A DNA stretch of 64,000 bases from Phycisphaerales bacterium (GTDB taxonomy: Bacteria > Planctomycetota > Phycisphaerae > Phycisphaerales > UBA1924), in NCBI GenBank assembly GCA_020853975.1, contig JADYXW010000028.1, forward strand, positions 1-64,000, written 5' to 3'. The position numbers and the translations under genes were made by a program. The notes under the pieces were generated by a model, which had not been told where the DNA came from, ran no database searches, and was given only the letters and a program-made list of their open reading frames with translations. Numbering within the stretch: the first letter of the stretch is position 1; each line of letters starts with the position of its first letter. Shown here piece by piece: positions 747 through 40,521 of the stretch.

Positions 747-959
747 TCATCGCCCCAAGCCGGCGCCGCAACAACGTCGGACTCGTTGGCCAGCACGCGC
801 CTCTCCGCCGCCACTCGCAGTGTTGCCAATCGCCGCGGGCTCAAGTTCGTCGGCACCACGATCTGCTACGCCTTCATGCAGGCGGTGTGCGTGGTGGATG
901 ACCATGTGGAAGCGTGCCCGGCACGAAAGGCACACCGCACGAGCCGCTGACCCCGTCAT
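747..959 (-). CDS. Small Cys-containing protein, translationally coupled
   Basis: 70-residue product. Its ATG (959-957) overlaps the TGA (958-956) of the preceding gene as ATGA, the classic coupling arrangement, which is the main reason to believe in it. It has a CLSC pair at residues 10-13, a nearby HH (residues 22-23) and a CC pair at 63-64, so a small metal-binding fold is possible, but no family is recognised. It has no signal peptide or membrane segment. It could still be a chance open frame in GC-rich DNA, since the C-terminal third is low-complexity G/A/R. Confidence 0.45.
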   Translation of the reverse strand: MTGSAARAVCLSCRARFHMVIHHAHRLHEGVADRGADELEPAAIGNTASGGGEARAGQRVRRCCGAGLGR

Positions 960-1276
960 CCGAACCGATCGTCCTCCGCGCGAGGCTGCCCGCCCCCACG
1001 CTTGGCCGCCGGCACTCGCTCCAGCTCGCTCACGATCCGCGCCAGAGCCTCCACCTTGCGACCCTCGCAGACGCCGTCCACGTGCGCCGCATCGCACCCG
1101 GCCTTCAGCATCGTGGCCCGGGCCTTGGACCACAGTTTCTCGAGCGCCGCGGGCTCCCCGGTCACATACACCTCGCTCACCAGCTCCGCCAGACGCCGCC
1201 TCAGCGCGGTGTCCCGGTGGGCGAAGAACCGCGACACGATCCCCTGCTGATAGGGCGAGAGGTATTGGTGCGCCAT
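956..1276 (-). CDS. Hypothetical protein, 106 aa
   Basis: Soluble, mostly alpha-helical 106-residue protein with a well-mixed composition (residues 1-90) and a basic, disordered tail. I do not recognise a family. It lies 58 bp downstream of the broken TpsA gene on the same strand and is coupled by ATGA to a 70-residue gene. The spacer holds an 8-bp hairpin. There is no signal peptide. The upstream ribosome-binding sequence is weak (CGGACAGC before ATG), so expression may depend on read-through from the secretion operon. Confidence 0.6.
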   Translation of the reverse strand: MAHQYLSPYQQGIVSRFFAHRDTALRRRLAELVSEVYVTGEPAALEKLWSKARATMLKAGCDAAHVDGVCEGRKVEALARIVSELERVPAAKRGGGQPRAEDDRFG

Positions 1277-1295
1277 GCTGTCCGAGCGTACGCGA

Positions 1296-1323
1296 GCCCG
1301 GGGCGGGGAGGCCCACCCCGGGC
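1296..1323. other. Hairpin between the TpsA gene and the small-gene pair
   Basis: Perfect 8-bp inverted repeat GCCCGGGG / CCCCGGGC with a 12-nt loop, between the end of the exoprotein frame (1335) and the next gene start (1276). No T tract follows on either strand, so it is not a standard terminator. It may attenuate or stabilise the transcript. Confidence 0.35.
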
Positions 1324-1334
1324 CGCGGCGTTCC

Positions 1335-1874
1335 TCACGATCCGCGCCGGGCCGCCTCTTCGATGGCCGCGGCGAAGTCCTCCGGGCTCGCGCCCGTGGG
1401 GCTGATCTGCTCCAGCAGGCGTGCCCGCGCCAGGCGATACTCGCCGGAGGTGAGGCCCAGGCGCCTCATGGACGCGAGCAGGGCCTCGATCTGCCGGATG
1501 GTCACGAGCGTCGTGCGCTCCGCGGAGGTCGACTCCAGGTAGGCGCGATAGGAAGCGCCGTCGAAGCGACCGGCCTGCGTCAGCGAGAACCAGCGGCTCG
1601 CGCTCGCGCTGATGCCCGACGCGATCTCCTCTGTCCGGTCGGCGTCCGAAGAGCCGAACACGCCGTTGTACTGGTTCACCACGCGGACCAGCCACCGGAT
1701 GTCAACGCGGCTGGCGGCGTACGTGTCCTCCAACGCCATCGCTCGCGCGACGCCGGGGAGGTCGTTATACACCAGCGGGCCGCTCAGGCCCTCCTGGCCT
1801 TCGGCGCCCGCGACAGCCCGAGCGTTCACGCCCAGCCGCGCAAGCAGCCGGACATCAAACACCGGCACCTGCAC
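1335..1874 (-). pseudogene. C-terminal fragment of the TpsA exoprotein (frame-shifted part)
   Basis: This open frame carries about 180 residues of well-mixed sequence and, read upstream without its own start, continues smoothly from the exoprotein gene. Joining frames around 1905 gives NGRVLDQ followed by GLTPPRFRDTVQVPVFDV, much more protein-like than the Pro/Ala/Gly-rich tail the upstream frame otherwise ends in. The upstream frame stops at 1855 and this frame has a stop at 1932, so the shift (+1 in sense) must lie within 1858-1931. An independent gene starting at the GTG of 1874 is the alternative, but no clear ribosome-binding site precedes it. Either a sequencing error, a real inactivating mutation or, less likely, recoding would explain it. 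The function of this C-terminal region is unknown. Confidence 0.6.
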
Positions 1875-4800
1875 CGTGTCCCGGAAGCGCGGCGGGGTGA
1901 GTCCGCTGGTCCAGCACGCGGCCGTTGAGCATCAGCGCTGCCTGCGAGGTCTCCTCGGGCAGACTGCGCGTGACTTCAAACTGATCCAGCACGCCGTGGC
2001 TGCCCTCGAAGGCATCGGCAAAGGTCGGTGCGGGCGCGCCGGCCGTTCCGGCGAGTTCCAGGTTCGTCGTGTTGAACCCGATGAGGCCACCGGCGACAAA
2101 GTCCAGCCCGCGGTCGGTGACAGACGCGCCGGTGAAGTCCAGCAGGTCGTCCGCCGCACGCAGCCGGAGCACGATGCGGTCGGCCGTGACGATCATGTCG
2201 CCCACGGTGGTCATGTCGCCCAGCTCGGCGTCCTGCGTCGCGGTCAGCCTGAGGGTGCCCAGCGTCGTGAACTTCTCGTGCTGCGCCATGCGGAAGTTGC
2301 GGGCGGAGATGTTGATGGATCGCTCGCCCACGATCGTCGCGGCGTCGGCGATGTCGCGCTCGGAAACTCCGAACCCGGTGGAGAGCGTGATGTCCTCGAT
2401 CGCCGCGAGCGAGCCCACATCGCCGTTGAAGACGATGAGCCCGCCGGGCGTCGTCATGACGTCAAGGTTGTGCGAGCCGTCGATGGTGGAATCGAAGCGG
2501 ATCACACCATCGAACGCGGGGTCGAAGCTGAGGAGCCGGGTGTCGTCGCCCAGGGTGACGGCACCGTTGTAGAACTGGTCGCCCCTGGTGCGGACCAGCC
2601 CGCCGTTGATCGCTGAGTCGCCATTGACCGTGAGCCCGACGAGGCCGTTGACCTCGCCGACGGCGCCGTCGGCGGTGAGGTCGCCGTTGACCGTCAGGTA
2701 CGAGGGGCACTCACCCCCACCGAGGTTGCCAATACAGTCAGCCACCAGGCTGTCGGCGGTCGTCTCAAAGATCACCTGCGGGGCCGTGAGCGTGCGGTCG
2801 TTCACCAGCTCCACAGCGCCGTGGTAACGCTGGTACTGATCAGCGGCGATGTCCGCGCGGAGCTGGCCCACTCCGAACACGTCAAGCGAGACAAGCGAGA
2901 GGGCGTCGGCGACCGTCGAGCGGGTCTCTGAGGCGAGCGTCAGCGCCGTGCCGTCCACCTGCGTCGCATCGGTGATGTCCACGCCCGCGTCGTAGGACTC
3001 CACCCGGTAGGTCATGCCCTGCAGCGCGTCGGCGAACTGCGCCGCGTCGGGCAGGTCGCTCGCACCGATGGCGGCGTCCTGCTCGAAGGTCATCGCGTCC
3101 GGACGGGTCGTGCCACCCGCAACGCCGTGGATCGTCGGCCCGTTGGTGTGCACGTCGATTCGGGCGGTGGCGAGGCCGGCACCGCTGCCGGCCCGGAGCG
3201 CGATCGTCCGGCCCCAGAGGTCGACGCCCGAGAGCGAGCCCGTGCCGGGCTCCAGGTGCTGGGCAAAGGTCAGGTCGCCCGAGCCATCGAGGCCCGAGTG
3301 CACGCTGATCTCGCCCCCGGCATGGAGGAAGCCCGCGATCGTGATGGGCCCCTCGCTGCGGAGCGAGATGTCCGAGCCGATGTCGATGTTGTCCTCGACG
3401 CGGATGGACTGGGAGGCGTGCGCCTGAAGGCTGCCGACCTGGGCATAGCCGTTGGCCCCGCCAAAGTCGCCCCCCAGCACGAGGTAGCCGTTGGTGATGT
3501 CCAGGACGACATTGACCTGGCTGGCGTTTGAGATCGAGCCGAACGGGCCCGAGCGGAAGAACTTGCTGCGGCCCTGGGTGAGATAGAGCGTGCGTCCCGC
3601 GGGGAGGTCGGCGAGGCCGAACTTCACCTGGCCCGTGGTCGCGGTAAGCCGGATGTCGCCGCTGAGCGACTGGAGGTTGGTGCCGAGGAAGACCATGTCG
3701 CGGATGTCGCGACCGGCGCGAAAGTCCAGCTCGGTGGCGCCGACGAAGAGGACGGGGTCGGGGGTCGCGGGCCCGGGGCCGCCGAAGCGGATGTCGCGGC
3801 CCGCGCGGAGCGTCAGCCCGCCGTTGGTCTTGAAGATCGTGTTGAAGATGACAATGTCGTTGGTGGCCTCGAGGAAGACATCGCCCGCAAAGTTCTCGAT
3901 CGCCGCGGGGGAGATGTTCCAGGTGACGGCGCCGCCATCGGGCCCGTTGACCTGCCCGTCGCCGACCTCGGCGTCGTCGCCGGCGCCGTGGAAGATGTTG
4001 ATGTTCGTCGGATCAAAGAGGATGGAGGCGGCCCGGAAACCGGGCTGGGCGTCGCCGACGAGCGTGCCGAGCACGGACAGCCGCCGGGCGCCGGAGACCT
4101 CTCCCACGCCGCCGTCGCCCCCGAGCGCGCCGCCGGAGATGTCAACGATCGCGCCACGCTCCGTGGAGGTGTCGCCGGCGTAGGAGTGCACGAGCAGACG
4201 CCCGCCCGAAGCCAGCCCGTCACCACCGGAAGCGGAGGTGACGCTCCCCGAGGCAAGCGTGGTGAGTGTAGAGCTCGTGATCGTGACCGAGCCCGCGCTC
4301 CCGCGGTCCGCGTCGGCGCTGACGACGCCCGCGTTGGTCACGACCGGGGCGGTCATCACGACATCGCCCGCGGCCCCGTTCTCGACGCTCGCGCTGATCG
4401 TGCCGATGTTCACGGCCTCGCCAGAGCTGGCGATTGCGACCTTGCCGCCCTTCGCCCGGACCTCGCCCCGGTTCACGAACGCCATGGCGACAGCGTCGCC
4501 CGCCGCGAGGCTGGAAACGCCGCCCTTGCGGAGCTTGGGCGCCGGTGGCCTGGTGGGGTCGACGGTGCGGCCGTCGATCTTGGCCATGATGTTCCCGTCG
4601 GCCTCGCGCACCATCACGTCACTTCCGACCATCATCGAGACCACGCCGCCATCGGCGATGACCTGCCCCGTGTTCTCGATCGCGGCGCCGACCAGCGCGA
4701 CAGACCCGGCGTCGATGACGCCCTGGTTGATGATCGCACCTTCCACGCCCGTGAAGTGGTCTACGCCGCGCAGGAAGTCGCGGTCCGAGAGATTGCCGGC

Positions 4801-5205
4801 GGCGGCGATGACCCCGGACGCGTTGACGATCGAGCCCGCGCCGAAGACCACGCCCGCGGGGTTCACGATGTACACCCGGCCGTTCGCCGTCAGGTTGCCG
4901 TCGATCCGCGTCGGGGCCGGGCCCTGGATGCGGTTGAGCACGCGAGAGGCGGCGTCGGGCTGAATGAACCGGACGGTCTCGCCCGGGGCAATATCGAACG
5001 ACCGGTAGTTGATGATGGCGTTGCGGGAGGCCGTGATCGTGGTGAGCGTGCCCTGGCGTTCGAAGCGGACGGCGCCGCGGGCCACCTTCTCGCCCTGGGG
5101 GCCCGCCGCCGCGGGCGACGCCGCCAGGCCGATCGTCGAGCCGGCGATCAGGGCTATGGCAACGGCCCTGCCGATCCCGATGCGGTCATCTCTGCGGGTG
5201 TTCAT
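1855..5205 (-). CDS. Filamentous haemagglutinin-type TpsA exoprotein (N-terminal and main part; frameshifted at 3' end)
   Basis: Large exported protein of a two-partner (type Vb) secretion system. The ATG at 5205 is preceded by GGAGG. Residues 1-35 form an extended signal peptide ending in AAA. Residues about 40-150 match the TPS secretion domain: RFIQPDAASRVLNRIQG, then the hallmark NPAGVVFGAGS. The rest is a repetitive Gly/Asp/Val-rich beta-helix passenger with recurring short strands such as GDV-T, TVNG and INQG. The frame ends at 1855 in an unnatural Pro/Ala/Gly-rich tail, and the natural C terminus appears to continue in another frame down to 1335, giving about 1300 residues in total. 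The gene lies 86 bp downstream of its TpsB partner. Adhesin or surface-protein roles are typical of the family; the actual ligand is unknown. Confidence 0.85.
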   Translation of the reverse strand: MNTRRDDRIGIGRAVAIALIAGSTIGLAASPAAAGPQGEKVARGAVRFERQGTLTTITASRNAIINYRSFDIAPGETVRFIQPDAASRVLNRIQGPAPTRIDGNLTANGRVYIVNPAGVVFGAGSIVNASGVIAAAGNLSDRDFLRGVDHFTGVEGAIINQGVIDAGSVALVGAAIENTGQVIADGGVVSMMVGSDVMVREADGNIMAKIDGRTVDPTRPPAPKLRKGGVSSLAAGDAVAMAFVNRGEVRAKGGKVAIASSGEAVNIGTISASVENGAAGDVVMTAPVVTNAGVVSADADRGSAGSVTITSSTLTTLASGSVTSASGGDGLASGGRLLVHSYAGDTSTERGAIVDISGGALGGDGGVGEVSGARRLSVLGTLVGDAQPGFRAASILFDPTNINIFHGAGDDAEVGDGQVNGPDGGAVTWNISPAAIENFAGDVFLEATNDIVIFNTIFKTNGGLTLRAGRDIRFGGPGPATPDPVLFVGATELDFRAGRDIRDMVFLGTNLQSLSGDIRLTATTGQVKFGLADLPAGRTLYLTQGRSKFFRSGPFGSISNASQVNVVLDITNGYLVLGGDFGGANGYAQVGSLQAHASQSIRVEDNIDIGSDISLRSEGPITIAGFLHAGGEISVHSGLDGSGDLTFAQHLEPGTGSLSGVDLWGRTIALRAGSGAGLATARIDVHTNGPTIHGVAGGTTRPDAMTFEQDAAIGASDLPDAAQFADALQGMTYRVESYDAGVDITDATQVDGTALTLASETRSTVADALSLVSLDVFGVGQLRADIAADQYQRYHGAVELVNDRTLTAPQVIFETTADSLVADCIGNLGGGECPSYLTVNGDLTADGAVGEVNGLVGLTVNGDSAINGGLVRTRGDQFYNGAVTLGDDTRLLSFDPAFDGVIRFDSTIDGSHNLDVMTTPGGLIVFNGDVGSLAAIEDITLSTGFGVSERDIADAATIVGERSINISARNFRMAQHEKFTTLGTLRLTATQDAELGDMTTVGDMIVTADRIVLRLRAADDLLDFTGASVTDRGLDFVAGGLIGFNTTNLELAGTAGAPAPTFADAFEGSHGVLDQFEVTRSLPEETSQAALMLNGRVLDQRTHPAALPGHGAGAGV

Positions 5206-5291
5206 CCGTGTTCCCTCCGTGCCTCTCTTCAGAACGTACGTGACGGCCGTAGGTAACATAGATCGAGGCCGGTCGGTTGCCATGAATTTGG

Positions 5292-7190
5292 CTAGTAGAT
5301 CAGCGTGAGGACGATGTGCAGCTCGGTGTGACCGGCATCAACAGAATGTCCGCCAGATCCGTCGTCCAGTTCCGCCAATGCCACGCCTAGGTCTACTCGG
5401 ACGTTGAACCTCCGGGTGAGCGAGAACTCGGCCCCTACCCCCGCCCCAACGAGCGTCTCATCCACCTCGAAGCTCTCCCGGTCAGAGTTCAGCACGCGGG
5501 CGGCGTCCACGAACCCCTTGAACACCAGGTCCCAGTCGGTCGGGCCATACGCGTACTGAGGCTTCCACCGGAAGGGCTGCCCCATGAACGTCCCGGGCTG
5601 CACGTCCGGGTCGACCGAGCGCGGAACGTGAAACCGGTATTCCAGCGTGCCCATCACCACGTCGTCGCCCGCGACCTTGGAGGTCGGGTAGCCCCGAACC
5701 GTGTAGAGGCCGCCCGCCGCCATCTCCTCGTTCGGGATCAGGCGGCTGCCCAGCGAGTGCTGCCCCCGAAAGGCCATCAGCACCTCGTGCGCCAGGTTCC
5801 CGGACTTCGCCGAGGCCTCGTCGAAGAGCGGATCAAGATAGAACGAGTGCACCGCCTCCGCACGCAGCACCGCATACTCGTCGTCGGCGTTCAGGCGGCC
5901 AAGGGCGTCCAGGTCCGCGCTGGTCCCCGCGATGCCCGCGAGGTTGAGGTCGACGCCGAGCTGCGCCTCGGTCCGGCTCTGGTCGCGGAACCGCTCCAGC
6001 CTCATGGCGGCGTGCGGGATAAGGAAGTCCTCGTCCGCGTCAGAGCCCGCGAGGTCGTTCTGCACGCGCACGTTTTCGAAGCGGGCACCCGCGATGAGGT
6101 CGACGAAGAGGTCCTTGTGCTGGAAGAAGTTCCACTTCAGCTCCACGCCCGCGTCCCAGCCCTGGCCGCTGAAATCAAGGTCCGGCAGGCCCAGTTCCGA
6201 CGCGACATACTCGTAGTACGAGGCGTGCACCTTCCATCGCAGCCTCTCGGAGTTCGGGAAGGGCCGGTCGTAGAACGCGTACACCTGGTGCACGTCGTCA
6301 AAGTTCGCGGTCTGGTACCCGACCGTGAAGATGTCGTCGTTGTTCGAGAGGTCGTTGTGGATGAAGCCCATGTGCTCGCGGAAGGCGTCGGTGGAGCCAG
6401 AGCCCGTGTTCGACACCTGCCCGAAGAAGAGCCATGGCCGGTTCTCCGTCACCATGTAGTCCAGCGTCACGGCTCCGGGCGTGTCGCCCGGTGCGGACAC
6501 CGCAACGTCCACGCGCCGCCCGGGGTGGCGGTTCAACCGCGCGGTGTACGCATCGAGCACGTCCGCCCGCAGCAGGTCGCGACGCGCCGTCTCTCCCTCA
6601 ACGTGCGGCCCCACGGGCGAACGCTCGATGATCCTGCGGTGCAGCGGGTTGTTGAGGCTCTCGCCCTCCTTCACACGCTCGCCGACACCCAGCGTGCGGA
6701 CCTCCGTCACTGTGCCGAGCGTCACCTCAAGCCTCAGCGAGCCGTCACCGGCCTCGCGGGTGTCGACCACCACCCCGTCCACGACTCCGAACTGGAGCGG
6801 ATCGGGCGTCACGTAGACTCCAACGTACCCCATCGACTTGAGCAGACGAAGAACCGCAGGCGCGACCGCGGCCAGCCCGGTGTCCGTCAGCTTCACCCCG
6901 CCCCGTGCCGCGATGTCCGCCAATCTCAGGGGAACGCCGGTCTGACCCTCTTCGGGGGCGGCGAAGCCTTCGGCGGTCTCCACCAGCTCGACCCGAGCCT
7001 CCAGCAGGGCAGCCCCGTCTGGCAGTTCGGAGGCCTCCACTGCGTACCGAACTACAACTGAATCGATCGAATGCGATCCGCTTTCCGCGATCAGCGAGGG
7101 CCCAAGCCCCGCCCGAGCGTCCACGGGCAGCCCCGCGAGCGAGGCGAGGGCCAAGGCCCAGGTCAGCGTTCTTCTGTAGCGTGGAGACAT
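5292..7190 (-). CDS. TpsB / ShlB-FhaC-type outer-membrane transporter of two-partner secretion
   Basis: 632-residue Omp85-superfamily pore that recognises the TPS domain of the adjacent exoprotein and moves it across the outer membrane. A signal peptide spans residues 1-27 (ending ARA). Residues about 40-240 hold periplasmic POTRA-like segments. From about 250 a 16-strand-type beta barrel follows with alternating aromatic strands. The loop-6 signature VRGYPTSKVAGDD and the strand motif FKGFVDAARV are visible, and the protein ends in the aromatic residue Y. The ATG at 7190 has GAGGG upstream. It is the first gene of the minus-strand operon TpsB-TpsA. Compared with FhaC (about 580 aa) the N-terminal region is longer. 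I am confident of the family; the exact substrate is inferred from adjacency. Confidence 0.9.
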   Translation of the reverse strand: MSPRYRRTLTWALALASLAGLPVDARAGLGPSLIAESGSHSIDSVVVRYAVEASELPDGAALLEARVELVETAEGFAAPEEGQTGVPLRLADIAARGGVKLTDTGLAAVAPAVLRLLKSMGYVGVYVTPDPLQFGVVDGVVVDTREAGDGSLRLEVTLGTVTEVRTLGVGERVKEGESLNNPLHRRIIERSPVGPHVEGETARRDLLRADVLDAYTARLNRHPGRRVDVAVSAPGDTPGAVTLDYMVTENRPWLFFGQVSNTGSGSTDAFREHMGFIHNDLSNNDDIFTVGYQTANFDDVHQVYAFYDRPFPNSERLRWKVHASYYEYVASELGLPDLDFSGQGWDAGVELKWNFFQHKDLFVDLIAGARFENVRVQNDLAGSDADEDFLIPHAAMRLERFRDQSRTEAQLGVDLNLAGIAGTSADLDALGRLNADDEYAVLRAEAVHSFYLDPLFDEASAKSGNLAHEVLMAFRGQHSLGSRLIPNEEMAAGGLYTVRGYPTSKVAGDDVVMGTLEYRFHVPRSVDPDVQPGTFMGQPFRWKPQYAYGPTDWDLVFKGFVDAARVLNSDRESFEVDETLVGAGVGAEFSLTRRFNVRVDLGVALAELDDGSGGHSVDAGHTELHIVLTLIY

Positions 7191-7390
7191 GGAACCCTCG
7201 CGGTAATCGGACCTTCAACGCGCAAGATTCCTCCATCGGCAGTCCGGTTGCGCGGCACACACAGGATGTTCCAACTCCCACCGAGCGGCGGTTCCCCCTT
7301 CGGCTCACGTCCGAAGTCCAAAATAGCGATTTGACAGCGCAGTTTTGACGCATTGGTGTTATCCTGCCAGTCCTCGTGAGGAGCACCGTC

Positions 7391-7645
7391 ATGAATCGTG
7401 GGTCTGTCGCCGTGATGATCGCCGCCGCATGTCTCGCCCTGTGCGCAGGTTGCAACCGCTCAGGGCGCTCACCCGCCTCCATGTGCGCCCTCAGCGTTCA
7501 GCCCCAGACGCTCACCCTCGGGGCCGGTGATTCCCTGGGTCGCGTGATCTACGTCAACGACCTGATCCTCGCCGCGCGTGCTCTCAACGCCGACGAGATG
7601 CTGACCGCGGCGGACTCGGCAGAGTCCTTCGAGCTCGCCGAGTAA
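7391..7645 (+). CDS. Small putative lipoprotein
   Basis: 84-residue protein beginning MNRGSVAVMIAAACLALC with a lipobox-like ending AGC at residues 18-20, so lipid-anchored export is likely. The ATG at 7391 is preceded by a GTGAGGAG ribosome-binding sequence. The mature part is short, acidic toward the end, and shows no known domain. It is transcribed divergently from the TpsB gene; the 200 bp between them (7191-7390) must hold both promoters, but I could not fix a convincing -35/-10 pair there. Function unknown. Confidence 0.6.
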   Translation: MNRGSVAVMIAAACLALCAGCNRSGRSPASMCALSVQPQTLTLGAGDSLGRVIYVNDLILAARALNADEMLTAADSAESFELAE

Positions 7646-7824
7646 AACCCTATCAGGCGGGGCGTTCGCCGGCGGCGCCGGGAATAGACGACAGCCCCTG
7701 TCCTCCGCATCCTATTTTTTGGTCAAACCGGGTTGCATTCCTCGGTTCTTGGTTCACCTTTCCGCATAGTGGGCGTCCGAGCTTGCCGGGCGTCCGTATC
7801 GATTGACGGAAAGGGAGAATCGCC

Positions 7825-8502
7825 ATGGATCGGTTTGCACGCATCAGCGCACTGGCCGCGCTCGCCGGGTCGCTCCTTGCTGGCCAGGCCAACGCCACAC
7901 TCATCGACTCGTCCGCGTACTTCACCCCGCTGCCCCACACGCTCATCGACTTCGAGCTCGACGCCAACGGCGACCCGCTCGGCCTGATCGACGGCGAATC
8001 TCTCGCGATGCCGCTCACCGCGTACTCCACGCAAGGCGTCACCTTCCTCAACCAGGTCAGGTGGGTCAACGACGGCTCCCCCGCCTTTGACGCGGCGCAG
8101 CTCATCGGCGGCTCGTGGGACCACTCCATCCCCTCCGCCTTCGTCAACTCCTTTGCCTTCACCTTTGACGTCCCTGTCCGGGCCTTCGGTTTCTGGGTCG
8201 TCAACAACCAGAACGTTGATCCCGACGGGCCCATCTTCCGGGCTTACGACGCGCAGAACCAGCTCATAGAGCAGGTGCAGTTCAACGGCGCCGTCGTTGA
8301 CTCGACGATCACCGACGGCGTGACGGTCGCCGGGTACGGCTTCATGGGCATCGAGGCCGATCGCGATATCGCCCGGGTCGAGGTCCAGAAGCGGGCGGCG
8401 ATCTTCGACGACCTGCGGTTCACCGCGGTCCCGACGCCGGGGGCAGCGACAATGGCGGGGCTTGCGGGGCTGGTGCTGAGCCGACGTCGCCGCGGTGCAT
8501 GA
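7825..8502 (+). CDS. Secreted protein with PEP-CTERM-like C-terminal sorting signal
   Basis: 225 residues. Signal peptide at 1-24 (SLLAGQANA). The middle, about 30-200, is a beta-rich domain with aromatic pairs (FAFTFDVPVRAFGFWVV), resembling the lectin-like or choice-of-anchor domains of exported planctomycete proteins. The C terminus has the tripartite sorting signal: VPTPGAA, a short hydrophobic helix (MAGLAGLVL) and the basic cluster SRRRRGA, the Phycisphaerae variant of PEP-CTERM. It is therefore likely processed by an exosortase-type enzyme and placed on the envelope; no exosortase gene is in the window. GGAAAGGGAG lies upstream of the ATG. It stands alone between flanking genes. Confidence 0.75.
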   Translation: MDRFARISALAALAGSLLAGQANATLIDSSAYFTPLPHTLIDFELDANGDPLGLIDGESLAMPLTAYSTQGVTFLNQVRWVNDGSPAFDAAQLIGGSWDHSIPSAFVNSFAFTFDVPVRAFGFWVVNNQNVDPDGPIFRAYDAQNQLIEQVQFNGAVVDSTITDGVTVAGYGFMGIEADRDIARVEVQKRAAIFDDLRFTAVPTPGAATMAGLAGLVLSRRRRGA

Positions 8503-8559
8503 GCCGCAGGCCGCCTCCCCGCTTGCACTTGTCCGAGAGGCAGGCAATAGTGGTGGCTT

Positions 8560-10053
8560 ATGGCCACCTCAACTCCGCGTCTGCTCGCGCTCCTTCCCCT
8601 CGCCTTCCTGGCCGGCTGCCGGTTGGCCCCGACCCAGGACCCCACCCCCGTCAACATCCCCATGCTGGCCCCGGGCGAGCCCGGGGTTCTGGTGGACGGC
8701 GACACCTCGGAGTGGCCCGCCCAGCTCGCCGCCTGGTCGGACGAACACTCCCTCTACGTGCGGTTCACGATCGAGAACGAGCAGCTCACGCTGCAGTCCT
8801 CGGGCCGCACGGTCTCGATCCTGCTCGACACGGACGCGTCCGCCTCGACCGGCTTGATCCCCGCGCGTTCGGGGCTGAGCGACCTCGGCGCCGACGTTGA
8901 GATCCAGTTCTCTCCCCGCAAGGCTTCCGGGGGCACGACATCGGGAGCGGCGATCCTGGTGCACTCGGGGGGCTCGACGCAGCGCTTCAAGGCCGACGCC
9001 CTGGACCTTGCCATCGCCCCCACCTACGCGTCGAGTTGGTACGAGGCACGCATCACCCGAACGCCGGCCATCGGTCTTGGCCTGCCCCCGAGCGGCCTGC
9101 TCGCCCCGGGGCGCGTGCGGGGTGTTGTCGCGATGCTCGACGACGCCGGTGTGCCGGAGGCCTGGGCCGATCCGTTCGACATCCAGACCGAGGACATCTG
9201 CCCGGGAGGCGAGCGGCTCTCGGACTTCGCGCCTTCCGCCAAGCCCGACGGCGGCATCCGCCTGATGACGCTCAACGTCGAGAAGGGTGCGCCGATGACC
9301 AACCCGGAACCGTTCAGGAGGATCCTCCGCGCGATCAACCCGGACGTCATCCTCGTCCAGGAGTGGGATGGCGGGGAGGCCGATGTGCTGCGTTCGTGGT
9401 TCGCGGCGTTGGACGCCGAGTGGAACATCGCCACCGCGGGCGGGACCACCGCCTCGGGCGGCGGAGTCGCCATCGCCAGCCGCTTCAAGCTCACGCAGTT
9501 GCCCGGCAGGCTGACGACCAACGACGGGGGTGGCCCGCGCCCGGTGCGCTTCGTCGGCGCGATCGCTGATTCGCCGGCGGGGCCGATGGTGATCGGCACC
9601 ACGCACCTCAAGTGCTGCGGCACCTCGGGCAGCAGCGAGGACCAGCGCCGCATGACCGAGGCACGCGCGGTCTCCGCGGCGCTGCGAGCCGCAGCGGGCG
9701 CCTACCCCGGCGCCATCCGCGTTGTGGGAGGCGACCTCAACCTCGTCGGCAGCCGCCCACCCCTGGACCTGCTCCGCGCCGAACTGGACGCGGACGGCTC
9801 GGACCTCTCGGTCGCGGCGCCGCAGGTGCTGGGGGATGTCACCCTCACCACCTGGCGCAGCCCCGGCAGCGAGTTCCCCCCGGGCCGCCTGGACTACCTC
9901 GCGTACAGCGACGCCAACGCCGACCTGGTCTCGTCGTTCGTCTTTGACACAGCCCGCTTCACGCCCGAGGTTCTGGCGAAGATGGGCGTGGAGCGGGGCG
10001 ACTCCGCGTGCTCCGACCACCTGCCCGTGGTGATCGACCTCAGACCCCGCTGA
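8560..10053 (+). CDS. Lipoprotein with CBM9-like and endonuclease/exonuclease/phosphatase domains
   Basis: 497 residues. The N terminus is a lipoprotein signal (LLALLPLAFLAGC, lipobox LAGC at residues 17-20). Residues about 40-210 resemble a carbohydrate-binding / CBM9-like fold (VLVDGDTSEWP, YVRFTIEN). Residues about 235-497 are an EEP-family phosphohydrolase: LMTLNVEKG, the metal ligand E in VQEWDGG, GTTHLKC, GGDLNLVGS and the terminal SDHLPVV. All core catalytic motifs (N, E, H, D-x-N, SDH) are present, so it should be active on a phosphodiester or phosphate ester outside the cytoplasm, perhaps nucleic acid or a phospholipid. The substrate cannot be read from sequence. It is convergent with panD. 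Confidence 0.75.
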   Translation: MATSTPRLLALLPLAFLAGCRLAPTQDPTPVNIPMLAPGEPGVLVDGDTSEWPAQLAAWSDEHSLYVRFTIENEQLTLQSSGRTVSILLDTDASASTGLIPARSGLSDLGADVEIQFSPRKASGGTTSGAAILVHSGGSTQRFKADALDLAIAPTYASSWYEARITRTPAIGLGLPPSGLLAPGRVRGVVAMLDDAGVPEAWADPFDIQTEDICPGGERLSDFAPSAKPDGGIRLMTLNVEKGAPMTNPEPFRRILRAINPDVILVQEWDGGEADVLRSWFAALDAEWNIATAGGTTASGGGVAIASRFKLTQLPGRLTTNDGGGPRPVRFVGAIADSPAGPMVIGTTHLKCCGTSGSSEDQRRMTEARAVSAALRAAAGAYPGAIRVVGGDLNLVGSRPPLDLLRAELDADGSDLSVAAPQVLGDVTLTTWRSPGSEFPPGRLDYLAYSDANADLVSSFVFDTARFTPEVLAKMGVERGDSACSDHLPVVIDLRPR

Positions 10054-10079
10054 TCCCGGCGCCGACACCGATGCGCCCG

Positions 10080-10451
10080 TCACGAGGGCTTGTAGCGCAT
10101 CGTCTCGGTGATGTTGTTCTGTTCGTCCATGATCAGCACGCGGGGCCGGTTCTCGCGATACTCGCGGTCGGTCATGAGCGCAAAGTGCATGATGATGACG
10201 CGGTCCCCGGGCTCCACGAGGTGCGCCGCCGAGCCGTTCACCTCGATCGCCTTGGAGCCTTTTTTGCCCTTGAAGATGTAGGTCTCGAAGCGTTCGCCAT
10301 TGCGGCAGTTGGTGACGAGCACCTTGTCGTTCACGCGCATGCCGCACTTGACGAGCAGCGACGCGTCGATGGTGATCGAACCGACGTAGTCCGGGAGCGC
10401 CGCGGTGACCGCGGCCCGGTGGATCTTGCTGTGCAGGACCTCACGGAGCAT
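10080..10451 (-). CDS. panD: Aspartate 1-decarboxylase
   Basis: 123-residue pyruvoyl enzyme making beta-alanine for pantothenate and coenzyme A. The proenzyme is cleaved between Gly24 and Ser25 of the motif YVGSITID, which is intact, so the pyruvoyl group can form. NGSAAHLVEPGDRVII matches the family core. Length is normal (about 120-135). It lies 3 bp downstream of rsfS on the same strand, so the two are co-transcribed. The C-terminal extension after MTDREYRENRPRV is common in the family. Confidence 0.95.
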   Translation of the reverse strand: MLREVLHSKIHRAAVTAALPDYVGSITIDASLLVKCGMRVNDKVLVTNCRNGERFETYIFKGKKGSKAIEVNGSAAHLVEPGDRVIIMHFALMTDREYRENRPRVLIMDEQNNITETMRYKPS

Positions 10452-10454
10452 GCG

Positions 10455-11114
10455 TCAGCCTCCGACGCCCAGACCGGCTCGGTCTCGGGGCTTCTGGTCC
10501 GCCCGCTCCCACTCCACGCGCGGCGCGTCACCCCACATCATCTCGAGGTCGTAGTGCGCCCGCGTGTTGGGCTCGAAGAGGTGCACCACGACGTCCACGC
10601 AGTCAAGCACCAGCCACAGGCCTCGCTCGTCGCGGCTGCTCCGATACGCGGCGAACCCCTGCTTCTCTCCCAGCTTCTCCACGTATTCGAGCACCGAACG
10701 CATCTGCGTCGCGGACGTGCCCGAGCCGATGACCACGAAGTCCATCACCTGGTTGCGCCCGCGGATGTCCAGCACGGTCACGTCGGCGCACTGATAGTCG
10801 CCGAGCATGCGGGCCGCCTCGACGGCGAACTCGCGCGAACGCTCGGGGGGAGCCGGCGGCCTGGACGGAGCGACCGGCTGAACCGGCGCCGCGGCCGCCG
10901 TCGCCTCAGCAGCCGGCTTCCGGGCGGCTCGCTTGGCGGGGGCCTTTGCTGGCGTCTTGGGGGCCGCCCGTTTCGCCGTCTTGGCGGGCTTCCTTGCGGC
11001 CGTGCCCGCGGACTTTGCGGGCGGCTTGGACGCCCGCTTGGCGCTGGGCTTTGCCGACGAGGAACGGGCTTTGGCCTTCGGGGCCTTTGACGCGGGCTTC
11101 TTGGACGGGGGCAT
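10455..11114 (-). CDS. rsfS: Ribosomal silencing factor RsfS with a long histone H1-like N-terminal tail
   Basis: 219 residues. The C-terminal half (about 92-205) is the RsfS/Iojap domain that binds ribosomal protein uL14 and blocks subunit joining in starvation (ADVTVLDIRGR, MDFVVIGSGTSATQM, WLVLDCVDVVVHLF). The first 90 residues are an extra Lys/Ala/Pro-rich stretch with repeated KPAK, AKRA and APK units, like the tail of eukaryotic histone H1 or bacterial H1-like proteins. The usual RsfS is about 105-130 residues. I chose the ATG at 11114; frames further upstream read through unrelated DNA. It is followed after 3 bp by panD. The tail may bind nucleic acid, which is inference. Confidence 0.85.
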   Translation of the reverse strand: MPPSKKPASKAPKAKARSSSAKPSAKRASKPPAKSAGTAARKPAKTAKRAAPKTPAKAPAKRAARKPAAEATAAAAPVQPVAPSRPPAPPERSREFAVEAARMLGDYQCADVTVLDIRGRNQVMDFVVIGSGTSATQMRSVLEYVEKLGEKQGFAAYRSSRDERGLWLVLDCVDVVVHLFEPNTRAHYDLEMMWGDAPRVEWERADQKPRDRAGLGVGG

Positions 11115-33975: not shown

Positions 33976-34584
33976 GTGTCCACTCCTCCCCCCCCACCAC
34001 CCGACGCCTGCCCGTTCGTGAGCCGGGGCGGGCTCAAGCTTCGCCACGCCCTCGATGAGTTCCGCCTCGATCCGTCGGGCTTGGTGTGCGCGGACCTGGG
34101 CTGCAGCACGGGCGGGTTCACGGACTGTCTGCTCAGCCGCGGAGCTGCCCGGGTCTTCGCGGTCGACACGGCGTATGGCGAGCTGGCCTGGAAGCTCCGC
34201 AAGGACCCGCGCGTGCAGGTCATGGAGCGTTCCAACGCGCTCCATATGGAGCCCGCTGAGCCTGTGGACCTGGTCACGCTCGATCTTTCCTGGACCCCCC
34301 TGAGGCTCGCTACCCCCGCCGCCCTCCGCTGGCTCAGGCCCGAGGGCAGGATCATCGCCCTTCTCAAGCCCCACTACGAGCACAAGGACAGAGGGGGCAG
34401 CCTCCCCCAGGGGGGCGTGCTCCACGAGTCTGTGGCTGAAGAAGTGGCCCAGGCCGTGGCGGCGTCCCTCCCGGCCTTGGGCGTTGCCGTGCTGGGGCTG
34501 GCTCGGTCGCCCATCCTGGGCGGGAAGGGCAAGAAGGCCGGCAACGCCGAGTGGCTCGTGCTGCTGCGGCGCGCCGAGACCTAG
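33976..34584 (+). CDS. TlyA-like rRNA 2'-O-methyltransferase lacking the S4 domain
   Basis: 202 residues with a GTG start. The FtsJ-type methyltransferase part of the TlyA/haemolysin A family is clear: FVSRGGLKLRHALDEF, ADLGCSTGGFTDCLLSRGA, AVDTAYGELAWKLRKDPRV, DLSWTPL and LLKPHYE. Family members are about 245-270 residues and start with an S4 RNA-binding domain; here that is absent and replaced by a short Pro-rich start. The enzyme may bind rRNA differently or have another target. The 3' end overlaps the convergent glycosyltransferase gene by 4 bp. Confidence 0.85.
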   Translation: MSTPPPPPPDACPFVSRGGLKLRHALDEFRLDPSGLVCADLGCSTGGFTDCLLSRGAARVFAVDTAYGELAWKLRKDPRVQVMERSNALHMEPAEPVDLVTLDLSWTPLRLATPAALRWLRPEGRIIALLKPHYEHKDRGGSLPQGGVLHESVAEEVAQAVAASLPALGVAVLGLARSPILGGKGKKAGNAEWLVLLRRAET

Positions 34585-36258: not shown

Positions 36259-36289
36259 ACGGGCCCCGAGCGGGCCCGTTGCCGTTTTT
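36259..36289 (+). terminator. Intrinsic terminator of csrA
   Basis: 8-bp stem ACGGGCCC / GGGCCCGT with a 5-nt loop, then TGCCG and T5. It lies 26 bp after the stop codon. The T tract is slightly displaced. Confidence 0.8.
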
Positions 36290-36373: not shown

Positions 36374-37768
36374 ATGGACATCGCCTTCATCGGCCTTGGC
36401 AAGCTCGGATTCCCCTGTGCCGTCGCCTGCGCCCTTAGGGGCCACACGGTCCACGGATTTGACCTCGACACCGCACTCGTGGAGGGCTACCGGCGGGGCG
36501 AGGTCACGCCCTTTGAGCCGGGCCTGCCCGAGCAGTACGAGTCCTGCAAGCAGCGCATGCACTACTGCCGCACGCTCGACGAGGCGGTCTCCAAGGCTGA
36601 CTTTGTCTTTGTCTCGGTGCCCACGCCCCACGCCCCGATGCACGACGGGTCCTTCCCGTACGACGGGGTCGCGCGGAACTTCGACAACTCGATCATCGAG
36701 CGGGCGCTCGTAGAGGTCGGCCGTGCGATCCGCAACAACGCGGGCGACGGGCGCTTCCGCACGGTGCTGGTCATCTCCACCACCACGCCCGGCACGATGG
36801 TGAACGAGCTCGGGCCGGCGACGGTGCGTGCCGCGGGCCGGCGCATCGGCGATGGCTGGACCATGGTCTACAACCCCTTCTTCATCGGGCAGTCCACGGT
36901 CGTGCGGGACTTCCTGAACCCCGAGTTCGTGCTCCTGGGTGTCCCCCAGGATGACGAAGGTCGCGTCGCGGACGACGGGCGCGGTGAAGCGCTGGCCCGC
37001 GAGCTCTACGGCACGCTGCACAGCCAGCCCGTCTGCCCCATGACCTGGACCGAGGCCGAGTGCGTGAAGCTCTGCTACAACACCTACCTCGGCCTGAAGG
37101 TCGTCTTCGCCAACACCGTGATGGAGCTCGCCCACAGGCTCCCCGGCGTGAACTGCGACGTCGTCAACGCCACCCTCAAGCTCGCCAAGGACCGCCTGGT
37201 CTCCCCAAAGTACATGGACGGCGGGATGGCCGACGGCGGGCCCTGCCACGGGCGCGACCAGATGGCCATGTCCTATGTCGCTCAGAAGGTCGGCCTCACC
37301 TTCAACGTCTTTGACCTCATCAACCACGGGCGCGACGCCCAGACCGGCTGGCTCGCGGACCTCATCCAGCGCCACGCCAAGGGCCGGCCCGTCGTGCTGC
37401 TTGGCATGGCGTTCAAGCCCGGCACCAACCAGACCCAGGGCAGCCCCGCCATCCTCCTGGCCAATATCCTGCGGAACCGGGGCGTCGAGCCCGTGCTCCA
37501 CGACCCGGTCATCCGCCCCAAGGCCGAGTTCCCTCACGGCCCGGCCATCTACTTCATCTCGACGCGCTGGGAGCAGTACAAGGACTTCGCCTTCCGCCCG
37601 GGCGACACCGTCATCGACCCCTGGCGGATGGTGACCAGCGTCCCCGCGGGCGTCGAGCTCGTGCGCGTGGGCAGCGGCGACGCCGCCGACACCGCCACGA
37701 CCGACGACGAGAGCGTGCTGGCACGGACAGAGGCCAAGCCCGTCGGGCATCTCCGCGCGGCGTCGTAA
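36374..37768 (+). CDS. UDP-glucose / GDP-mannose dehydrogenase-family protein
   Basis: 464 residues. An N-terminal NAD-binding fold (IAFIGLGKLGFPCA, GxGxxG at 7-12), SVPTPHAP, the central helix EAECVKLCYNTYLGLKVVFAN, and the C-terminal UDP-binding domain (VVLLGMAFKPGTNQTQGSP). The catalytic Cys is at 291 in GGPCHGRD, where classical Ugd has GGSCFPKD, so an oxidising thiol is kept but the surrounding motif is unusual. It should oxidise C6 of a nucleotide sugar to a uronic acid, or do a related reaction. First gene of a tight cassette; the next gene starts 17 bp downstream. The C-terminal 30 residues are polar and extra. Confidence 0.82.
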   Translation: MDIAFIGLGKLGFPCAVACALRGHTVHGFDLDTALVEGYRRGEVTPFEPGLPEQYESCKQRMHYCRTLDEAVSKADFVFVSVPTPHAPMHDGSFPYDGVARNFDNSIIERALVEVGRAIRNNAGDGRFRTVLVISTTTPGTMVNELGPATVRAAGRRIGDGWTMVYNPFFIGQSTVVRDFLNPEFVLLGVPQDDEGRVADDGRGEALARELYGTLHSQPVCPMTWTEAECVKLCYNTYLGLKVVFANTVMELAHRLPGVNCDVVNATLKLAKDRLVSPKYMDGGMADGGPCHGRDQMAMSYVAQKVGLTFNVFDLINHGRDAQTGWLADLIQRHAKGRPVVLLGMAFKPGTNQTQGSPAILLANILRNRGVEPVLHDPVIRPKAEFPHGPAIYFISTRWEQYKDFAFRPGDTVIDPWRMVTSVPAGVELVRVGSGDAADTATTDDESVLARTEAKPVGHLRAAS

Positions 37769-37785
37769 CCCGAACAGGAACCCCC

Positions 37786-38697
37786 ATGCGCACCGTCGCG
37801 GTCTATCGCCTGCTGTACGGCTCGGACTTCCTGGCGGAGTCCCTCGCGTCGATCTACCCGCACGTGGACGCCATCCTCTGCTGCGTCACGCACCAGATGT
37901 TCGGCGGGCGACGCGTCGTGAAGTACTTCGGCAGAGATGTGTACCTGCCCCACGACATCGACGGCGTGACCGACGCCATCCACTCCTGGTCAAAGACCAA
38001 CGATCGAGAGGGCAAGGTGCACGTGGTGGACAACCCCCACGGCGCGCAGCTCATCGGCCAGCTCTCGAACATCATCAACTCGATCGTGATCCCGAGGTTT
38101 GACCCGACCCACGTGATGCTCGTCGAACCCGACGAGGTGTGGCACCCGGAGGCGATCGCCAACCTCTTTGACCTTGCCGGCACCTCCGACGCCGACGAGT
38201 TCATGGCCGCCCCGCCCCCGCTCTTCTGGCGGTCCTACCGCTTCGCGACGACGCGCACCAACCCGTACGCCGTGCTCCGCGCGCTGAAGGGGGCAAGGCA
38301 GATCGAGCCCACGGGCCACGCGCTGGCGAGCGCCAGGGGCCGGCTGAGGAAGCTCAGCGACCCACGCGTCCGCGCCCACAACTTCGGCTTTGCGGGGTCC
38401 GAACGGACCGCATTCTGGAAGCACCTGACGTCGCTGAGCTTCAGCCGCGACGCCGGCCTCGACTGCCCCCCGCGCGAGGAATGGTTCGAGGACGTGTGGC
38501 GGGCCTGGAACTGGGACACCAACAGACGCACCGACCTCTGCCCCTCGATCGGGCACGAGCACGCCTTCCCCGCGGCAGAGCGGTACCCGTTCGCCGATCT
38601 CCCGCCGATCATGAAGGAGCGCATCGCGACGAGCCCGCTGCCGGAGTGGGCCGCCGCGGGCGGCGCCGACGCCTTGCTCCCGGAGGTCGCGGCATGA
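37786..38697 (+). CDS. Glycosyltransferase-like protein of the radical SAM cassette
   Basis: 303 residues, soluble. The opening VAVYRLLYGSDFLAESLASIYPHVD and the later SIVIPRFDPTHVMLVEPDEVWHPEA resemble GT-A glycosyltransferases, in which an aspartate/glutamate cluster (here EPDE, residues about 113-116) binds the metal-nucleotide sugar. The second half is rich in Trp and His and unlike known families. The stop is coupled by ATGA to the radical SAM gene, so equal production is expected. I am sure of the gene, moderately of the fold, and do not know the substrate. Confidence 0.6.
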   Translation: MRTVAVYRLLYGSDFLAESLASIYPHVDAILCCVTHQMFGGRRVVKYFGRDVYLPHDIDGVTDAIHSWSKTNDREGKVHVVDNPHGAQLIGQLSNIINSIVIPRFDPTHVMLVEPDEVWHPEAIANLFDLAGTSDADEFMAAPPPLFWRSYRFATTRTNPYAVLRALKGARQIEPTGHALASARGRLRKLSDPRVRAHNFGFAGSERTAFWKHLTSLSFSRDAGLDCPPREEWFEDVWRAWNWDTNRRTDLCPSIGHEHAFPAAERYPFADLPPIMKERIATSPLPEWAAAGGADALLPEVAA

Positions 38698-39866
38698 GGA
38701 CCGTTACGCCACACACCCAGCTCTTCGCGGCCCCCGGGGGCGTGGAGCTCTCGATCAACGGTCGCCCGGTGGGCACCCGCGAGGCGTCGCACGACGCGTG
38801 CGAGATGCCCGAGCAGTTCAAGGCCAGAGAACCCTCGGCGATGGAGCACCGCTTCACGTCCACGGGCATCAAGTTCTGGAAGCACAGGGGCTCGCTGGAG
38901 TCTTACAGGCAGGGGACCGGCCGCACGGTCATCTCCACGCACATCGCGCCCGAGGGCCGCTGCAATCTGAAGTGCTCGTACTGCTCGGTGAGCGAGCGCA
39001 CGCTGCACAGCACGATCGGACTGCCCCGCATCCAAGACTACGTGACCAAGCTCAAGGGCCGCGGGCTCAGGGCTGTCATCCTCACGGGAGGTGGGGAGCC
39101 CACGCTCTACAAGCAGTTCAACGAGCTGGGGGAGTGGATTCTTGACCAGGGGCTGGAGCTCGCGCTCATCACGAACGGGACGCAGTTCCAACGCGTGTCG
39201 GACCGGGTCCTCGCCAATCTCACCTGGGTCCGGATCTCCATGAACGTCTTCCGCGACTGGGACCGCAAGATCCAGGTGCCCCGCGAGCGGCTCGGACACG
39301 CCACGACCGTCGGCATGTCGGTCTGCTATAGCGGCGAGAACAAGGACCCCGAGTTCCTCCGACGCGTCGGGGAGATCGCCGACGCCCACGGCGTGTCGTA
39401 CGTGCGCGTCCTCCCGGATTGCATGCTGCCCCAGGCGCAACTCATCCGCGAGCACGAGGGCCTGACGGAGCTCTTCGCCTCCATGCGTGGCGGCGGGCGG
39501 TTCTTCCACCAGTTCAAGGTGCACGGCGCCCCCTGCCAGAGCACGTGTCACCAGTCCTTCTTCCGCCCGTACCTCTCCGAGGCCGTCGATCCTGTGACCG
39601 GGAAGCCCGGGCTCGTCTTCCCCTGCGACTCCGTCGTGCTCAACGACCAGGCGCAGAAGTTCCGGCCCCGCTTCGCGCTCTGCTCACCCGAGGAGATCCT
39701 CGACTACATGGACGGCAAGATCGCGCAGCCCTTCGACGCCACGGTGCACTGCGCCGGGTGCGTGTTCACGAGAAACGTCGACATGCTCGACCGCTACGTG
39801 CGGGGGGCCGAGGACCGCACGGGCGAGTACGCGCACACCGAGGTGAACCATGTCAACTTTGTCTAG
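38694..39866 (+). CDS. Radical SAM enzyme with SPASM-like C-terminal cysteines
   Basis: 390 residues. The [4Fe-4S]-SAM motif CNLKCSYC is at residues 90-97, TGGGEPTL at 131-138, and ALITNGTQF near 157. The C-terminal part has six more cysteines (281, 285, 311, 330, 353, 356) with CQSTC and CAGC pairs, the pattern of SPASM/Twitch domains that hold auxiliary clusters in peptide- or sugar-modifying enzymes. An 80-residue N-terminal stretch precedes the barrel. Its ATG overlaps the stop of the glycosyltransferase-like gene, and it overlaps the methyltransferase gene by 17 bp. Likely acts on the same glycan or peptide as its neighbours; substrate unknown. Confidence 0.85.
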   Translation: MRTVTPHTQLFAAPGGVELSINGRPVGTREASHDACEMPEQFKAREPSAMEHRFTSTGIKFWKHRGSLESYRQGTGRTVISTHIAPEGRCNLKCSYCSVSERTLHSTIGLPRIQDYVTKLKGRGLRAVILTGGGEPTLYKQFNELGEWILDQGLELALITNGTQFQRVSDRVLANLTWVRISMNVFRDWDRKIQVPRERLGHATTVGMSVCYSGENKDPEFLRRVGEIADAHGVSYVRVLPDCMLPQAQLIREHEGLTELFASMRGGGRFFHQFKVHGAPCQSTCHQSFFRPYLSEAVDPVTGKPGLVFPCDSVVLNDQAQKFRPRFALCSPEEILDYMDGKIAQPFDATVHCAGCVFTRNVDMLDRYVRGAEDRTGEYAHTEVNHVNFV

Positions 39867-40521
39867 CCGCACCGTCGCCCAGTACGACGAGGACTACTAC
39901 GAGCGGGGCGTCGAGTCCGGCAAGTCGTGCTACTCCAACTATCGCTGGCTGCCGGACCTCACGATCCCCATGGCGATGGTGCTGATCGACGCGCTGGGCA
40001 TCCGGCCCCGGCAGCGCGTGCTCGACTTCGGCTGCGCCAAGGGCTTCACGGTCAAGGCCCTCCGCATCCTTCGGCGTGACGCCTTCGGCATCGACGTCTC
40101 GCCCTACGCCATCTCGCAGGCGGACCGCGACATCGCGCCCCACGTCGGCCTCGTCGACGACCTGGACTCGTGGTCGCTCACGCGCCGGTTTGATCACGTC
40201 ATCGCGAAGGACGTGCTGGAGCACGTGCCGTACGAGGTGATGGACGACACCATCCAGGCGATCAGCCGCATGACGGACTCGTTCATGGTGGTGGTCCCCC
40301 TCGGGCGGGAGGGCCGGTTCGTGATCGAGGCGTACGAGCGCGACGTGACGCACATCGTCCGCGAGGACGCGGCCTGGTGGCTGGAGCGGCTCGAACGCCA
40401 CTTCGCCGACGTCGCGTGGCAGCACCACCTCGACGGCCTGAAGGACAACTGGCACCGCGTGAACCCGAAGGGGAACGCCGTGTTCATCGCGCGCGGCTCG
40501 CGGCTCCGGGCCGCTGCCTAG
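39850..40521 (+). CDS. SAM-dependent class I methyltransferase
   Basis: 223 residues. Rossmann methyltransferase: motif I VLDFGCAKGFTVKAL (about 57-71), the acidic strand end FGIDVSPYAI, and FDHVIAKDVLEHVPYEVMDD. N-terminal YDEDYYERG is often seen in glycan- or lipid-modifying methyltransferases. It starts 17 bp inside the radical SAM gene, the last member of the four-gene cassette. It is convergent with the UVR-motif gene 8 bp on. Confidence 0.85.
   Translation: MSTLSSRTVAQYDEDYYERGVESGKSCYSNYRWLPDLTIPMAMVLIDALGIRPRQRVLDFGCAKGFTVKALRILRRDAFGIDVSPYAISQADRDIAPHVGLVDDLDSWSLTRRFDHVIAKDVLEHVPYEVMDDTIQAISRMTDSFMVVVPLGREGRFVIEAYERDVTHIVREDAAWWLERLERHFADVAWQHHLDGLKDNWHRVNPKGNAVFIARGSRLRAAA

Follow-up and report, generated by a model that had tools for sequence, protein, structure and literature searches.

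DesII (TDP-4-amino-4,6-dideoxyglucose deaminase) applies radical SAM chemistry to a nucleotide sugar, and BlsE (cytosylglucuronate decarboxylase) acts on base-attached glucuronic acid, so that a uronate-type substrate has precedent. For UDP-glucose dehydrogenase, 18 residues were reported to be invariant across 229 published sequences, Glu141 among them, and Tyr10, conserved in 98%, was given a role in thioester hydrolysis (PMC4794789). The human E161Q mutant, changed at the equivalent of Glu141, was crystallised with a trapped thiohemiacetal (PMC3184952), and both residues have been tied to the second half-reaction and to hydrolysis of the thioester (PMC4794789, PMC3184952).

In phages, the closest described loci are the glycan/LPS islands of pelagimyophages, located in the host recognition cluster and holding phage glycosyltransferases and a UDP-glucose 6-dehydrogenase; these are the same viruses that carry the genes described below. 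The authors suggested host O-chain modification for the phage glycosyltransferases and in 2020 noted radical SAM-containing cassettes in two pelagimyophage genomes, without analysis, and the accessible text of that paper does not describe a four-gene unit, its fixed order, an altered dehydrogenase or a presence on bacterial chromosomes (PMC7029224). Twelve radical SAM genes were counted in one T4-like marine virus (PMC5332604). The cyanophage Bellamy has a NodU-NadE-methyltransferase-dehydrogenase cluster, the dehydrogenase of which is 52.6% identical to that of Pelagibacter phage HTVC008M, but no radical SAM enzyme of the family described here was found in it.

Here, a stretch of 64,000 nucleotides (the window) from a Phycisphaerales bacterium (GCA_020853975.1, contig JADYXW010000028.1) was analysed, in which a nucleotide-sugar dehydrogenase (UGD), a predicted glycosyltransferase (GTx), a radical SAM enzyme (rSAM) and a methyltransferase (MT) are encoded in a row. 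They probably form a transferable cassette for glycan modification, which occurs in some Phycisphaerales-type planctomycetes and in many marine tailed phages; a rumen Selenomonad has just the rSAM/MT pair. A literature search, with subscription journals mostly outside its coverage, returned no paper on the unit of four genes, on the altered dehydrogenase or on its bacterial presence, and within the literature covered the cassette as a unit is previously undescribed.

Gene content and layout

The cassette comprises four genes on the + strand between 36374 and 40521, with intergenic gaps of +17, -4 (ATGA) and -17 (Table 1). The open reading frames, their common direction and the motifs GGPCHGRD, EPDE and CNLKCSYC were all recovered as described in an earlier reading made from the sequence alone (the sequence-only reading). 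csrA is located upstream and a convergent UVR-type gene downstream. The cassette is suggested to form its own transcription unit because a terminator-like hairpin separates it from csrA. No known RNA element was detected at the locus with Rfam at the gathering threshold.

Table 1 Features of the cassette locus (positions in the window)
Feature	Position	Strand	Basis or remark
Terminator-like hairpin with T run	36259..36279	+	Between csrA and cassette; consensus match only
UGD-like nucleotide-sugar dehydrogenase, 464 aa	36374..37768	+	Pfam/NCBIfam domains, active-site alignment
GTx, 303 aa, GT-A-fold glycosyltransferase (predicted)	37786..38697	+	Invariant ExD (E114, D116), structure model
Radical SAM (rSAM) enzyme, 390 aa	38694..39866	+	CX3CX2C and six further invariant cysteines; DesII/SkfB/BlsE-like fold (model)
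Class I SAM-dependent methyltransferase (MT), 223 aa	39850..40521	+	Start codon within last rSAM codons

Compared with the congener G421 (one contig, also listed as L004 and L206), dN/dS was 0.05 for the dehydrogenase, 0.13 for GTx, 0.06 for rSAM and 0.06 for MT, and 0.04-0.10 for the neighbouring sigma factor, LpxI, UVR and GT2 genes. The cassette genes are like the neighbouring housekeeping genes in this respect, and therefore all four are considered real and kept by selection.

Two further genes were rejected as cassette members. The GT2 gene at 34581 (P0005), which the sequence-only reading had tentatively added to the pathway, lies on the opposite strand, accompanies the cassette only in the syntenic congener and has no homologue in phage cassettes; the methyltransferase gene at 45307 (P0006) has no homologue there either.

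Occurrence in bacteria

The cassette was detected in six planctomycete genomes or contigs and in five chromosomal contexts: the window genome, G421, G418 (L005/L204), L006, G413 (L205) and G648 (L211). The window genome and G421 share one site, and the other four have different flanks, mostly glycosyltransferase genes, with a sulfotransferase in G413. Presence was patchy: the cassette was found in 3 of 397 genomes of the class, which belong to a single family, in 4 of 61 near relatives and in 2 of the 7 genomes of the genus. In the phylum sample, hits were limited to the window genome and a partial relative with a different build. Wherever a full-length rSAM of this family was found in a planctomycete, the other three genes accompanied it in an unchanged order. 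The sequence-only reading had made its case dependent on conservation of this order in relatives, and the planctomycete order is kept wherever the cassette occurs, though in few genomes.

Outside the planctomycetes, a rumen Selenomonadaceae contig (L007) carries a GT2 gene followed by rSAM (45% identity) and MT (50%). Plasmids contained neither a full-length rSAM nor the MT. No clean empty site was found in five relatives, in which the UVR-sigma adjacency is kept but neither csrA nor GT2 nor LpxI was found on the other side.

Occurrence in phages

The cassette also occurs in phages, which the sequence-only reading had missed. All four genes are present in the isolate Pelagibacter phage HTVC008M, identified by protein search as gp157 (GTx-like, 25% identity), gp158 (rSAM, 51%), gp159 (MT, 40%) and gp162 (dehydrogenase, 30%). 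A profile scan of IMG/VR returned 55 contigs with a full or end-truncated rSAM; at fixed profile thresholds, MT was present in 52, GTx in 40, the dehydrogenase in 42 and all four genes in 35. Loci with an unrelated rSAM gene served as controls (76 bacterial and 28 viral), and 0 of these 104 had any partner; the cassette order recurs far beyond chance.

In 12 of the 20 viral contigs without GTx or dehydrogenase the locus runs into the contig end, and the remaining eight carry rSAM and MT only within the examined DNA, being of three types (L126; L151; L146-L150 with L169). UGD is thus not obligatory.

In phages the genes are recurrently arranged as GT - GT2-like - GTx - rSAM - MT - (NodU carbamoyltransferase - NadE) - UGD - (2OG oxygenase), and a distant version in Synechococcus phage SynMITS9220M01 adjoins heptose genes. 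In nearly all loci examined the cassette lies among glycosyltransferase genes, with neighbours including GT2, GT1-like, GT25 and GT29 transferases, a sulfotransferase and NodU carbamoyltransferases. A pilin gene (PF00114) lies inside the operon in four viral contigs (L131-L133, L163).

An rSAM/MT overlap of exactly 17 bases is shared by the window, L007 and 18 viral loci, and another 19 viral loci have an overlap of 4 bases. MT starts inside the conserved C-terminal His-x-x-Phe-Val of rSAM. As both the overlap and the position of the MT start are conserved in the window, L007 and viral loci, the rSAM/MT pairs appear to derive from one ancestral pair.

Identity between bacterial and phage rSAM proteins is about 45-50%. 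In the rSAM tree, calculated without G648 (found later), the five planctomycete sequences formed one clade with 100/100 support, for which a single entry into the family would be the simplest reading. The clade was nested among viral rSAMs only when a very long cyanophage branch was used as root, with inner support of 85-91, so that the tree does not tell donor from recipient.

Dehydrogenase

The dehydrogenase matched all three UDPG_MGDP_dh Pfam domains (PF03721/00984/03720) above cut-off and passed TIGR03026 (190.4 vs 189.8). Its residues were compared in an alignment of solved relatives and 25 cassette members. C291, K232, N236 and D295 were invariant in all 25 and correspond to Cys260, Lys204, Asn208 and Asp264 in S. 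pyogenes numbering, the Cys-Lys-Asn-Asp set shared with UDP-glucose 6-dehydrogenase and GDP-mannose dehydrogenase. Kept residues were Thr84, Ser135, Thr136, Pro168, Glu229, Lys232, Asn236, Asn247, Gly288, Gly289, Cys291, Asp295 and Lys348, which by this alignment match most of the 18 published invariant ones (PMC4794789).

The cassette enzymes differ from both known dehydrogenases at Tyr10, Glu141, a second Glu and the CFPKD motif. Glu141 was absent in 25 of 25 and replaced by Phe or Tyr, with Gln in one and Phe in the window copy. At the Tyr10 position, 23 of 25 (window included) have Lys and two have Asn, so that GxGYxG reads GxGKxG, with Asn in two copies. NPEFLxE is changed to NP(F/Y)(F/L)I(G/A)(Q/M) in nearly all, the second Glu becoming Gln or Met, and CFPKD to CH(P/G/N)RD; Asn287 is probably lost as well. 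An altered catalytic motif, GGPCHGRD, had been claimed for this protein. The motif is indeed changed around the Cys and Asp, but these two catalytic residues are intact, and the changes at Tyr10 and Glu141 are more telling. The loss of residues linked to thioester hydrolysis had been overlooked in that reading.

The enzyme is predicted to oxidise C6 without finishing the reaction in the usual way. A more conventional explanation is that it makes an NDP-uronate despite the altered motif, within an ordinary uronic-acid polysaccharide pathway in which rSAM and MT provide a side decoration. The TIGR03026 score and the retained active-site Cys, Lys, Asn, Asp, Thr and Ser agree with this, but the cassette proteins lack both a residue invariant in 229 sequences and one conserved in 98% (PMC4794789), and the window genome already has a canonical dehydrogenase copy at C99, with GTGYVG, NPEFLKEG and GGSCFPKD and with both Tyr10 and Glu141. 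This explanation is considered improbable.

Predicted glycosyltransferase

GTx matched no sequence family of Pfam, NCBIfam or PHROGs, and a relative of solved structure was not found either. Its AlphaFold model (mean pLDDT 85) best matched the GT-A glycosyltransferases ThuS, SunS, WrtF and SpsA (Z 11-13). The invariant E114 and D116 of the EPDE motif directly follow strand 109-113 in the model, which is the usual place of DxD. The protein had been described as GT-A-like with an acidic EPDE cluster; the modelled fold and the acidic motif agree with this and characterise GTx as a predicted glycosyltransferase. The idea that GTx had diverged, after duplication, from its phage neighbours c4, c8, c19 and c50 was rejected (profile-profile probability <1%).

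Radical SAM enzyme

The rSAM protein carries the CNLKCSYC motif and matched PF04055 with 42.4 bits (cut-off 29.5). Six cysteines follow residue 280 (C281, C285, C311, C330, C353 and C356), as had been claimed, but only five are invariant in 24 homologues, C281 being the exception. All invariant cysteines are C90, C94, C97, C243, C285, C311, C330, C353 and C356. The invariant C285, GX4C311, C330 and C353XXC356 may correspond to the auxiliary-cluster cysteines (GX4C ... CX2C) of SPASM/Twitch enzymes, and the modelled fold is like those of DesII and SkfB, but no SPASM domain model was matched. None of the NCBIfam rSAM families reached its cut-off.

The best fold match of the model (pLDDT 81) was DesII (Z 19.1 over 307 residues), which shares 12% identity, has other partner genes and was missed by the sequence profile. 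SkfB (Z 17.7), BlsE (Z 17.4) and SuiB (Z 16.1) followed, with TIGR04466, the BlsE family model, scoring 20.2 against a cut-off of 400 bits. DesII and BlsE act on nucleotide or nucleoside sugars, which would suit a glycan setting. The peptide maturase SkfB lies between them and matches almost as well as the sugar enzymes, and the modelled fold alone therefore cannot fix the substrate.

An alternative is that rSAM and MT act together on a peptide or protein substrate, either RiPP-like or a glycosylation target such as pilin, with the dehydrogenase and glycosyltransferase adding sugars to the same protein. Besides the folds of SkfB and SuiB, it is favoured by the best solved match of the rSAM profile, which is to the peptide epimerase YydG/EpeE and confined to the radical SAM core, and by the pilin genes, which would also fit protein glycosylation. 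However, pilin is absent from most loci, the NCBIfam models of RiPP peptide maturases all scored far below cut-off, and neither the window, as had been claimed, nor the recurrent viral gene orders (viral ORFs of at least 90 aa) showed a conserved small gene for a precursor. We give this alternative a small chance only.

Proposed function

We consider it probable that this is a mobile cassette making a C6-oxidised, radical-edited and methylated sugar for a surface glycan. The glycan role is well supported by context, and the chemistry is what we infer. The dehydrogenase would oxidise C6 of an NDP-hexose. As residues linked to thioester hydrolysis are lost, it may not yield the plain uronic acid but set free an aldehyde or transfer the acyl group to a different nucleophile. 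The rSAM would then make a sugar radical and edit the sugar, either on the nucleotide sugar, as in DesII, or after transfer; the coupled MT would methylate the edited sugar and GTx transfer it to the growing surface glycan. In phages the product may alter glycans of the host (or virion) surface, for example blocking superinfection, and in the planctomycete it may diversify the cell-surface polysaccharide. The SkfB fold match, the YydG/EpeE profile match, the contigs with rSAM and MT only and the pilin in four operons speak against this reading.

The dedicated pathway for a radical-modified, methylated surface sugar proposed by the sequence-only reading is supported in part, as a glycan pathway, given the glycosyltransferase neighbours, the GT-A model and the lack of a visible precursor, but without the GT2 at 34581. 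A more specific version is put forward tentatively: a DesII/BlsE-like rSAM would receive a C6-aldehyde or an acyl sugar from a UGD homologue unable to hydrolyse its own thioester. The edited and methylated product, a hitherto unknown sugar, would be placed on surface glycans and change the phage receptors of infected cells or of bacteria that had taken up the module, and this undescribed pathway would be common to marine phages and some planctomycetes.

A phage module for nucleic-acid hypermodification (modified base plus sugar), captured by bacteria, is very unlikely: glycosyltransferase, methyltransferase and rSAM genes do occur in some DNA-modification pathways and the HTVC008M cassette lies near ribonucleotide reductase genes, but no thymidylate-synthase-like or base-modifying gene is annotated beside it, the bacterial cassettes sit among surface-glycan genes, and in other phages LPS-type GT25 and heptose genes are among those nearby.

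Significance

Phage genomes contain many glycan genes of unknown purpose. The module described here has a fixed core and a very conserved rSAM, it is carried by an isolate phage that infects the abundant SAR11 bacteria, and its enzymatic oddity is directly testable. Its distribution suggests that a tool for altering the sugars of the cell surface is common to phages and bacteria. If the proposed function is true, the product would be a new surface sugar, radical chemistry would become one of the ways in which phages reshape host surfaces, and ocean phages would be linked with planctomycete surface diversity through gene exchange.

Record identity and additional loci in planctomycetes

The record named Leptolyngbya sp. 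PLA1 was syntenic with the window along its whole length and matched G421, a genome from the window's genus; its cyanobacterial name therefore looks wrong. The secreted-protein and transporter genes in the window resembled a planctomycete two-partner secretion pair. A further genome from this phylum encoded a radical SAM fusion that is more distantly related; its gene adjoined aminotransferase-like and deacetylase-like genes, and the protein is apparently a different sugar-linked radical SAM.

Coordinates of the features described
Locus	Positions	Strand	Feature
Window	1855-7190	both -	Filamentous-haemagglutinin-like secreted protein gene; TpsB/ShlB-like transporter gene
L112 (planctomycete)	755-2470		Radical SAM fused to cytidylyltransferase-like domain
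L113 (Pelagibacter phage HTVC008M)	16774-19054		NodU-type carbamoyltransferase and NadE-like genes
L124 (viral)	9695-11062		Radical SAM with ~100 additional N-terminal residues (compared with window 38694-39866)
L132 (phage)	8681-9214		Type IV pilin (PF00114, N-methylation motif)
L162 (viral)	6324-9995		1224-aa fusion: MptE-like stretch, GT29 sialyltransferase stretches, match to the 303-aa GT-A-like protein (GTx)

Viral variants of the cassette

Many viral radical SAM proteins carried the N-terminal extension exemplified by L124, within which a YAARGK...NYE pattern was conserved; the planctomycete and rumen copies had neither. The L162 fusion gene was immediately followed by the radical SAM gene. 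The L132 pilin gene was located within the operon, flanked by a glycosyltransferase gene on one side and GTx on the other, an arrangement also found in L131, L133 and L163. This pilin is possibly a glycosylation target, or was possibly captured from the host.

The NodU-type and NadE-like genes were situated between the methyltransferase and nucleotide-sugar dehydrogenase genes in HTVC008M and in other viral contigs, and likewise accompanied the dehydrogenase in cyanophage Bellamy. The pairing of a NadE-like ligase with a possibly non-hydrolysing dehydrogenase might hint at a uronamide sugar.
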